Shown: positions 48,317 to 50,701 of the stretch, one piece after another
Layout: each line of letters opens with the position of its first letter
Numbering within the stretch: position 1 is the first letter of the stretch
DNA from: Nitrospira sp.
GTDB lineage: Bacteria; Nitrospirota; Nitrospiria; Nitrospirales; Nitrospiraceae
NCBI GenBank assembly: GCA_024998595.1
Contig: JACOEK010000001.1
Location: forward strand, 1 to 64,000
DNA length: 64,000 nt
Direction: 5' to 3'
Made by a program: the position numbers and the translations under genes
The notes under the pieces: generated by a model
What the model was told of the DNA's origin: nothing
The model's database searches: none
Seen by the model: the letters and a program-made list of their open reading frames with translations, nothing else

Positions 48317-50701
48317 ATGCTCGACCCATGCTCGCAGGCGGCTCCGTCGGTGGTTGCTTCGCCTTTTCCTGCGTATGTTGACGTGGTATTGCCACGTCGG
48401 CTTCACCGTCCGTTCACCTATACGATCCCGTCCGAACTCAAAGGCCGGGTCGTGATCGGACGCTCCGTGGTCGTGCCCTTCGGCTCTCAAGACCTTCAAG
48501 GTCTCGTCATTGCGGTATATCATCGGCTTCCTCCCGGCGCACCAGAAAAAGGCCTCAAAGCTATCCGTTCGCTTGGCGCGGCGTCGCCGGACCACCTGTT
48601 GACCACCGATCAAATCGGGCTCAGTCACTGGGTTGCGGAACGGTACGCCGCACCCTGGGGGCAATGTATCAAGCTCGTGCTGCCCCCCGTTGATCGGGAA
48701 GGGCGCTCTCAGCCTCGATATGTGCCGACATTGCAAGGCCTCGCGAGTCCCTCACCTGTCGATGCGTTGGGAGAAACCGAAAGAGACCTGCTCGCACGCG
48801 TACGCCGACGTCCCAAAGGCATCATGGCGACGACTCTTCTGAAAGGCGACAAGCCCCGCACGACCCTCGCCTTGGAGGCGCTGCTCCAAAAAGGGTTGGT
48901 AGTCCGTTGTGACGAACCGGTAGCCCCAAGAACCCTCAGCTCCGCACAGCAACAGGGCCGGCCGCCTGGAGGCGCACTCCCAATTGAGCCGCTGGGGATG
49001 CTTGATTCTCTGGGATTGCCTCCCCCGGAAGCGATGCCGTGGCCGGCTCTTCTGGAACGGACGCTTGCGAAGGAGACCTTCACCCCCATACTGGTTCACG
49101 GGAACCACACCACGACACGGTGGTGCCTGGCCCAGGCAGCCCAAGCTACCATCCGCCGCGGGAGGCGTGTGTTGATCCTCACGGGTGATGTCGAGAATGC
49201 CTGTCGATTGGCAGGATCTCTGGCGTCGGCAGGCGAACGTCCGATGCTCTTGCACAGCGGCCTATCGACGAAGGCGCGCGCGGCAGTCTGGAAGGCGGCG
49301 CAAGATGGCTCGGCCATGATCCTTATCGGCACCCGCATGGCGGTCTTCGCGCCCCTGGAGAGGTTAGGTCTGGTGTGGGTGGAAGGCGAGGACGATGCGT
49401 CACTCAAAGAAGAGCAGGTGCCCCGGTATCATGCGCGAGAGGTGGCGCACTATCGGGCTTCACGCGAACGCGCTGTGTTGGTGCTGGCTTCGAACCATCC
49501 GTCTCTCGAGAGCCTGTTAGCGGTTCAAGAAGGACGGATGACGGCCTGTGTGTATCGTGATCCGGGGCAAGCGCCGAATGTGCAAGTGATCGACATGAAG
49601 GACTATGCCAGAGAGTCTTCAGGAGGAACGGTATTATCGCCTTCCCTGCGCGAAGGAATTCGTGAGGCCTTACGGCAGAACGCGTTGTCGATTCTGTACC
49701 TGAATCGCAAAGGGTTTGCGAGTGTCCTGCATTGCGGGGATTGCGGCGCGATGCCCCAGTGCGATGCCTGTAGTGTTGCGCTGACGTTTTTCCGACGAGG
49801 CAACCATGTCCGGTGCCACTACTGTGGCCGAACCAAACCCGTGCCCGAACATTGTCCCCGGTGCCAGTCGCTCAAGTTGGAGCCGGTGGGTTCGGGAACG
49901 GAACGTGTCGAAGAGGCTGTCCGACGGATGTTTCCACAGGCGCGCGTGGCACGTGTAGATGGCGAAACGATTCGTCGTCCTGTCGATGCGCGGGCCTTCA
50001 ATCGGCTGTTGGCCGCAGGAGAGCTGGATGTCGTGATTGGCACGCAGATGTTATTCAGGCTCGGTCTTCAAGGACGGGCGGCATTTGTGGCTCTGCCGGA
50101 TGCAGATGCCGGTCTCCATGTTCCCGATTTTCGTTCAGCGGAACGGATGTATCACGCCCTTCGGGATGCCGCCGATCTGGCCCGTCCTGGCTGCGCCGGA
50201 GGCCGGCTCCTCATACAGACGCGCTTCGCGGACCATCATGCGATTATGGCGCTGGTCTCAGGCGACGAGGACGTGTTTGTGAAGCAGGAACAGGCCTTTC
50301 GGCAGATGCTTCAATATCCTCCATGGACCTGTCTGATCAGGCTGGATGTGTCCGGGACGTTGGAGCCGCTGGTGGCTCAAGCTGCCGGTCGCTGGGCGAC
50401 GTTGCTGCGAGCGCAGGTTGCAGGTAAAGAAAAGGTGAACAGGGGGGCTAGCACAGATGCATCTCTAGTTTCAGAATCTGTCGGACAGCGTTTGGTCTCC
50501 AACCAAGTTGTCGTTCTAGGGCCATCTCCGGCACCGCATGCCATGGCGCGAGGTCGGTATTGTTGGCAGATCCTAGTCAAATCCAGTTCTCTTGACGCCG
50601 GCAAGGAGATAGCGGTACGGACACGCGAGGAACTTGAACGGGGGTCCCGCCGTGGCGGCCTCCGGTATGACATTGACGTCGATCCGGTGTCGATGGCGTG
50701 A
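48317..50701 (+). CDS. priA: PriA-family primosome protein with degenerate helicase motifs
   Basis: The 794-residue protein was read from the ATG at 48317; a GTG six codons upstream is possible. The N-terminal DNA-binding domain (about 15-125; YVDVVLPRRLHRPFTYTIP) and the zinc-binding region (C473, C476, C482, C485, C500, C503, C513, C516) are intact. The ATPase motifs are not: Walker A is replaced by HGNHTTTR (261-268), the DEEH box by EGED (356-359), and motif VI (normally QVAGRAGR) by DAADLARP (617-624). It probably recognises replication forks and recruits primosome partners without unwinding DNA, as proposed for actinobacterial PriA homologues. Confidence 0.88.
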   Translation: MLDPCSQAAPSVVASPFPAYVDVVLPRRLHRPFTYTIPSELKGRVVIGRSVVVPFGSQDLQGLVIAVYHRLPPGAPEKGLKAIRSLGAASPDHLLTTDQIGLSHWVAERYAAPWGQCIKLVLPPVDREGRSQPRYVPTLQGLASPSPVDALGETERDLLARVRRRPKGIMATTLLKGDKPRTTLALEALLQKGLVVRCDEPVAPRTLSSAQQQGRPPGGALPIEPLGMLDSLGLPPPEAMPWPALLERTLAKETFTPILVHGNHTTTRWCLAQAAQATIRRGRRVLILTGDVENACRLAGSLASAGERPMLLHSGLSTKARAAVWKAAQDGSAMILIGTRMAVFAPLERLGLVWVEGEDDASLKEEQVPRYHAREVAHYRASRERAVLVLASNHPSLESLLAVQEGRMTACVYRDPGQAPNVQVIDMKDYARESSGGTVLSPSLREGIREALRQNALSILYLNRKGFASVLHCGDCGAMPQCDACSVALTFFRRGNHVRCHYCGRTKPVPEHCPRCQSLKLEPVGSGTERVEEAVRRMFPQARVARVDGETIRRPVDARAFNRLLAAGELDVVIGTQMLFRLGLQGRAAFVALPDADAGLHVPDFRSAERMYHALRDAADLARPGCAGGRLLIQTRFADHHAIMALVSGDEDVFVKQEQAFRQMLQYPPWTCLIRLDVSGTLEPLVAQAAGRWATLLRAQVAGKEKVNRGASTDASLVSESVGQRLVSNQVVVLGPSPAPHAMARGRYCWQILVKSSSLDAGKEIAVRTREELERGSRRGGLRYDIDVDPVSMA

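Follow-up and report, generated by a model that had tools for sequence, protein, structure and literature searches.

In Deinococcus radiodurans, PriA has neither ATPase nor helicase activity and binds both forks and DnaB (Lopper et al. 2015, PMC4504706). The Walker lysine is replaced by arginine in PriA of the Deinococcus-Thermus lineage, and the K230R substitution in E. coli PriA abolishes its ATPase (PMC4504706). ATPase-deficient mutants of E. coli PriA still assemble the primosome on model substrates; the helicase activity of the E. coli protein is dispensable in laboratory conditions, yet most bacteria have retained its motifs (PMC4504706). As described in PMC13377028, E. coli PriA exposes single-stranded DNA of the lagging strand either by unwinding or by the action on SSB, after which the cysteine-rich region moves and PriA encircles the strand. 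For Caulobacter, joint action of DciA and PriA has been suggested (PMC9825169).

Here we consider the priA gene of a Nitrospira sp. The analysed stretch, hereafter the window, comprises 64,000 nucleotides (GCA_024998595.1, contig JACOEK010000001.1), and the host assembly has 15 contigs with an estimated completeness of 99.4%. Like PriA of D. radiodurans (Lopper et al. 2015, PMC4504706), the Nitrospira protein has degraded Walker A and Walker B motifs, belongs to a lineage with a Lys-to-Arg substitution, and keeps its DNA-binding parts; and like D. radiodurans, whose genome has no clear priB or dnaT (PMC4504706), the Nitrospira genome has no PriB above the cut-off. Unlike the D. radiodurans protein, it comes from another phylum, its P-loop is also shortened and, in the model, collapsed, motifs Ia and VI are absent as well, and in the window genome even the arginine is gone. 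Further, PriA of D. radiodurans has been characterised biochemically, whereas PriA of Nitrospira is known from its sequence and a model. With the canonical PriA of E. coli and Klebsiella (PDB 6dcr, 6dgd, 4nl4, 8fak) it shares the fold, the domain order, the eight zinc cysteines, motifs Ib and V and the C-terminal domain, but it lacks Walker A, DEEH, GSATP and AGRAGR, and, unlike in the E. coli and Klebsiella system, PriC has no match in the genome and PriB none that exceeds the cut-off.

The PriA pseudohelicase as such is already known, and the Nitrospira case is an order-wide, deeper instance of it. What is new is how far the loss extends, a second loss that the phylum may have undergone, the succession of decay steps inferred here, and the patch refitted at the former DEEH site. 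In a literature search covering titles and the openings of abstracts, no earlier report of a motif-less PriA in Nitrospira, Nitrospirae or Thermodesulfovibrio was found.

The priA locus and its motifs

The features of the locus are listed in Table 1. The ATG is more likely to be the start of priA than the in-frame GTG, and no obvious ribosome-binding site is seen by eye at either (GTG 48299, ATG 48317). The protein scores 371 bits with the NCBIfam model TIGR00595 (priA), the curated cut-off being 230, and the Pfam domains PriA_3primeBD, Zn_ribbon_PriA and PriA_C all exceed their cut-offs and follow in this order. A sequence search of the PDB at E≤0.001 yields five matches, all five of them PriA. 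When the whole genome is searched with TIGR00595 down to an E-value of 10, only the window priA lies above the cut-off, the lesser matches including RecG and Mfd, and the PriA_3primeBD model has a single match in the genome. The original prediction had named a second, canonical priA in the same genome as the observation that would speak against it; the search with these two family models shows a single PriA. It is very likely that the window protein is the orthologous and sole PriA of this Nitrospira, and that it is now a pseudohelicase.

Table 1. Coordinates of priA and of its domains and motifs in the window.
Feature	Positions	Strand	Comment
priA	48317..50701	+	794 aa from ATG 48317; sole PriA detected in the genome
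Alternative priA start, GTG	48299		In frame, 18 bases upstream of ATG 48317
3'-DNA-binding domain (PF17764)	48380..48685	+	Kept; Pfam
Former Walker A / P-loop, HGNHTTTR	49097..49120	+	Strand and helix linked by a predicted turn of two residues, Gly-Asn; alignment and AlphaFold2
Motif Ib, IGTRMAVF	49325..49348	+	Kept; alignment
Former DEEH box EGEDD with SLKEEQ..RYHA segment	49370..49435	+	Substituted, yet strongly constrained in the genus
EGEDD itself	49382..49396	+	
Former motif III, ASNHPSLES	49487..49513	+	Canonical GSATP.LE; alignment
Cysteine-rich region	49733..49864	+	Eight zinc-binding cysteines, all present; alignment
Motif V, GTQML	50039..50053	+	Kept; alignment
Former motif VI, DAADLARP	50165..50188	+	In the AGRAGR position; alignment
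PriA C-terminal domain (PF18074)	50426..50686	+	Kept; Pfam

In the alignment with E. coli PriA, the motifs of the window protein fall on GVTGSGKTE, DEEHD, AGRAGR and the eight cysteines of the cysteine-rich region. The GVTGSGKTE string is replaced by GNHTTTRW, which is one residue shorter; VPEI of motif Ia is replaced by TGDV, DEEHD by EGEDD, GSATP by ASNHP (so that motif III is half lost), and AGRAGR by ADLARP. The column of the Walker lysine contains threonine in the window genome and, as aligned, arginine in most of its relatives. The retained elements are GTR (Ib), NRKG, GTQML (V), DFRSAER, and the C-terminal VLGP and DVDP; the YHARE stretch following motif II also persists. The alterations of Walker A, DEEH and motif VI that had been read from the sequence of the window alone are thus seen at the same positions in this alignment, and Pfam and the alignment bear out that the DNA-binding domain and all eight cysteines persist (residues 479, 482, 488, 491, 506, 509, 519 and 522, numbered from the GTG). 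The broader statement that every ATPase motif has been lost needs to be narrowed: Walker A, Ia, DEEH and VI are gone, whereas GTR of motif Ib, GTQ of motif V, NRKG and YHARE remain.

In SF2 helicases the motifs retained here contact DNA or build the fold, and those lost bind and hydrolyse ATP. From the features of an active SF2 helicase, the window protein lacks the Walker A GxxxxGKT with the phosphate-binding loop, the DEEH box and motif VI; at the same time it shows the combination typical of the D. radiodurans pseudohelicase, Walker A and B being gone and the DNA-binding domains kept. Conservation was also contrasted motif by motif between 91 canonical rows and 54 rows of the window's clade. 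The set of eight zinc cysteines is complete in 44 of 44 rows of the window's clade, in 28 of 28 rows of a second motif-less clade described below, and in 20 of 20 canonical rows.

The AlphaFold2 model of the window PriA, built from an input of 40 sequences, is a confident PriA fold (pLDDT 87.6, pTM 0.86). The strand ahead of the P-loop is followed by just Gly-Asn and then by a helix. As a control, a canonical PriA from the Nitrospinota (L202) was modelled with the same protocol from 36 sequences (pLDDT 88.9), and it features the strand, a five-residue VTGSG loop, and a helix beginning at the lysine. The Foldseek search with the window model places PriA structures at ranks 1 to 9; in VIA-align, PriA structures occupy ranks 1 to 5 with Z of 29.2 to 34.9, the next protein being Mfd with 20.6. 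Judged by the sequence and by the predicted fold, the ATP site of the window PriA is gone.

Selection within the genus

The pooled dN/dS ratio was calculated for 13 sequences of the genus; since dS approaches saturation (pS about 0.59), the ratios are rough and their contrast alone is usable. For the whole gene dN/dS is 0.19, and priA is under purifying selection. On this rough scale, the lower values are seen in the cysteine-rich region (0.06), in residues 531–620 (0.08) and in the 3'-DNA-binding domain (0.15), and the higher ones in the former Walker A (0.37, from a stretch of 11 codons), in the former motif VI (0.25) and in the winged-helix and linker region (0.41). The lowest ratio among the compared regions, 0.043, belongs to residues 358–379, that is, to the former DEEH box and the next segment, and these residues include positions conserved in canonical PriA too. 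Residues 361–367 alone yield 0.059, and glycine replaces the first glutamate after the aspartate of DEEH in all 13 sequences. Because these residues are constrained and the glycine is invariant, the former DEEH site was replaced and then fixed, not abandoned. Such conservation was not expected for a lost catalytic box and implies that the patch has some function; it may be a new contact surface.

Distribution and history of the motif loss

In the phylum sample, TIGR00595 matches at E≤0.001 occur in 394 of 395 genomes, a count that includes matches to RecG and Mfd, and the motif columns were examined in PriA of 146 Nitrospirota genomes. In the window's order (families f1 to f4) none of 78 genomes has Walker A. 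The lysine column is occupied, as aligned, by arginine in 60 of the 78, a reading that hinges on the aligner's placing of a one-residue gap, and one sequence has a lysine there although the remainder of the loop is missing. In the window genome, RecG and Mfd have an intact Walker A, GxxxxGKT. Since they keep it while no genome of the order keeps the PriA one, the loss is neither chance nor a sequencing error. The Asp-Glu pair of DEEH is kept in seven of 78 genomes, including all four genomes of family f4 (L075, L220, L224, L226, L229), where DEEHD is intact, Walker A is lost and arginine stands in the lysine column. For example, L075 has APLKCRTGVY, with the loop shorter by one residue and Lys replaced by Arg, together with DEEHD. 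The arginine at the Walker lysine and the DEEHD kept in f4 suggest that Walker A failed first. It is probable that the P-loop was shortened and the lysine replaced by arginine at the beginning and that DEEH was lost afterwards; the f4 PriA looks like an early or intermediate stage of the loss of the motor.

Elsewhere in the class, families f9 (three of three) and f13 (one of one, with Asp-Glu kept) are likewise motif-less. The f13 sequence, L083, diverges strongly from other PriA, has additional residues where the P-loop would be and reads DEEAD; its position in the tree is unsure. Canonical motifs are found in 11 of 11 PriA from six other families of the window's class and in 25 of 25 from eight other families of the phylum, the canonical rows from the phylum being mostly the best-scoring TIGR00595 loci and not a random sample. 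As to whether the loss is ancestral, a check proposed by the original prediction, it is no younger than the ancestor of the order, and it does not reach back to that of the class, where the six families are canonical. We hold with considerable confidence that PriA had become a pseudohelicase by the ancestor of the order at the latest.

The order-wide search at E≤1e-30 detects PriA in 187 of 196 genomes. An order-specific profile applied to the nine missed genomes reveals N-terminal pieces by contig ends in two. In the other seven (G105, G256, G344, G394, G358, G399, G409) neither the family model nor the order-specific profile finds PriA, and one of these, G105 with its genome of 2.0 Mb, has a completeness rating of 99%. 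Some members of the order may do without PriA, or gaps in these assemblies may account for its absence.

A second motif-less group is formed by thirteen families (f17, f23, f25, f27–f33, f35, f37 and f40; L089 to L116). In all 28 sequences there is no GK at the column and no Asp-Glu; the lysine column contains Glu in 23 of 28, and Glu or Gln in 26 of 28. In one f23 sequence, GxxxxGK[ST] occurs by chance at another place in the protein.

In named genomes, the motif patterns were scanned in 80 loci, the best 80 of at least 585 confirmed matches. Ten of these are from the Nitrospirota, and none is canonical, L131 being cut before motif I; PriA of Nitrospira moscoviensis NSP M-1 lacks the canonical motifs. 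All 70 loci outside the Nitrospirota carry GKT and DEE; they represent ten named phyla, apart from three loci that have no phylum label. One of the canonical loci, L175, has an odd motif VI. With 11 of 11, 25 of 25 and 70 of 70 canonical sequences, the latter two being largely best-scoring samples, the loss arose inside the Nitrospirota, separately from the published Deinococcus-Thermus loss. There is no sign among these best-scoring outside loci that the motif-less PriA was imported from another phylum. The original prediction had named ATPase-deficient PriA of actinobacteria as the known precedent, while the biochemically demonstrated one is PriA of D. radiodurans (PMC4504706). The NCBIfam PRK14873 models, which we take to represent an actinobacterial PriA whose annotation states that helicase motifs are not detectable, give the window PriA 37 to 175 bits, compared with 197 to 421 bits for the PRK05580 models, and hence there is no pointer to transfer of that motif-less form.

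The gene trees are of the quick kind, and the motif columns were removed in the 93-row and 56-row trees. The 93-row tree includes 20 of the 36 listed canonical rows, and eight named loci were omitted from it (copies from the window itself, near-duplicates and one cut row). In this tree the window's order groups with f9 and f13 (SH-aLRT 90), and the second motif-less clade forms a group of its own. The two groups are joined with SH-aLRT of 81 in the 93-row tree and 78 in the 56-row tree. This weak joining in two motif-stripped trees is what would be expected if the motifs had been lost once, in the common ancestor of both clades, and canonical PriA had been regained elsewhere by transfer. However, the 31-row tree does not resolve the relation between the two groups, and constraining the window's class together in it, the canonical families included, costs 0.6 log units (AU p 0.48) and is not rejected. 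Moreover, long branches favour false joining, and the residues in the lysine column differ, mostly Arg in one clade and mostly Glu in the other. We regard the single loss as rather improbable. Given the long branches in both groups, two losses in the phylum are likelier than one, and the second clade perhaps arose independently.

Partner proteins and the role of PriA

A check of partners and loaders was proposed along with the prediction; in the window genome it covered PriC, PriB, the IstB/DnaC family and DciA. The family model of PriC has zero matches. No PriB match in the genome exceeds the cut-off of 72, the single one, at 37.5 bits, being an SSB-like protein. The IstB/DnaC family search reveals no loader: the two partial matches above the cut-off are DnaA and a PhoH-like protein, and one further match below it is an 823-residue frame. 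DciA is present here and, in total, in 75 of 77 genomes searched, and it occurs with canonical and motif-less PriA alike. The presence of DciA thus does not tie it to the loss of the ATPase, and DciA alone is rejected as the explanation. Other helicases of the genome are RecG, Mfd and a UvrD/PcrA/Rep-like protein of 738 residues, whose best score (PcrA, 459 bits) is under the NCBI equivalog cut-offs.

The gene for the SSB-like protein (L205:1450-1884, plus strand) directly follows an rpsF-like gene, the names being read from translations. Its C-terminus is EDEQL, and it differs from the usual acidic-Pro-Phe tail of SSB.

Overall, the best reading of these data, and a highly probable one, is that PriA of this Nitrospira would be an ATPase-dead platform for fork recognition. 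In this Nitrospira and its relatives in the order, PriA probably does not itself unwind DNA but marks a stalled fork at which the replication machinery can be reloaded. The original prediction implied that PriA recognises forks and does no unwinding; we infer the same from the sequence and consider it sound. PriA would recognise abandoned forks by their structure and handle the single-stranded DNA of the lagging strand via displacement of SSB, not by unwinding; its cysteine-rich region would close round this strand, and DnaB would be recruited with DciA substituting for DnaT and DnaC. If the lagging strand is duplex, it would be cleared by another helicase, RecG or a UvrD/PcrA-like enzyme. Comparative analysis suggests that the Nitrospira protein is biochemically inactive, that it binds DnaB and DciA, and that it acts in restart in vivo.

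A different role has been considered as well: PriA might no longer participate in restart and serve as a scaffold or regulator that binds forks or single-stranded DNA, restart proceeding by another route. This would agree with the former DEEH segment, replaced yet strongly constrained, as expected for a new contact surface, and with the seven of 196 order genomes where no PriA is seen. On the other hand, the conserved parts are the 3'-DNA-binding domain, the cysteine-rich region, motif V and the C-terminal domain, the search of the genome for PriC gave nothing and that for PriB nothing above the cut-off, and the inactive PriA of D. radiodurans still binds forks and DnaB (PMC4504706), so that we find this role unlikely. 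It is more doubtful still, and indeed very improbable, that ATP is used through a rebuilt, non-canonical site, with arginine in place of lysine in the relatives and EGEDD in place of DEEH: the arginine is frequent in the column (60 of 78) and EGEDD is well conserved in the genus, but the phosphate loop is predicted to be missing, motif VI is lost, the window genome has threonine and not arginine, and the Lys-to-Arg substitution by itself abolishes the ATPase of E. coli PriA (PMC4504706). Finally, a decaying gene or a sequencing artefact, which the extreme erosion of the motifs might bring to mind, has a negligible chance, since there are no internal stops among the order matches listed, dN/dS of about 0.19 speaks against decay, and the loss of the motifs is seen in separate assemblies, single-contig genomes and that of N. 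moscoviensis among them.

Returning to the fork-recognition platform, a bolder version of it may be put forward tentatively, its chance being well short of even. The Nitrospirota may have made PriA an ATP-independent fork clamp acting with DciA and DnaB, and may have done so twice or more. In the window's order this would have started with a Lys-to-Arg replacement like that of Deinococcus-Thermus, the DEEH patch would have been refitted as a contact surface for DciA, DnaB or DNA, and no ATP would be used before DnaB.

The loss of motifs across the order, which includes the Nitrospira nitrite oxidisers, and in the second clade amounts to a set of natural experiments in which fork recognition is uncoupled from unwinding, and bacteria of the DciA type are on offer for reconstituting an ATP-independent step of restart.
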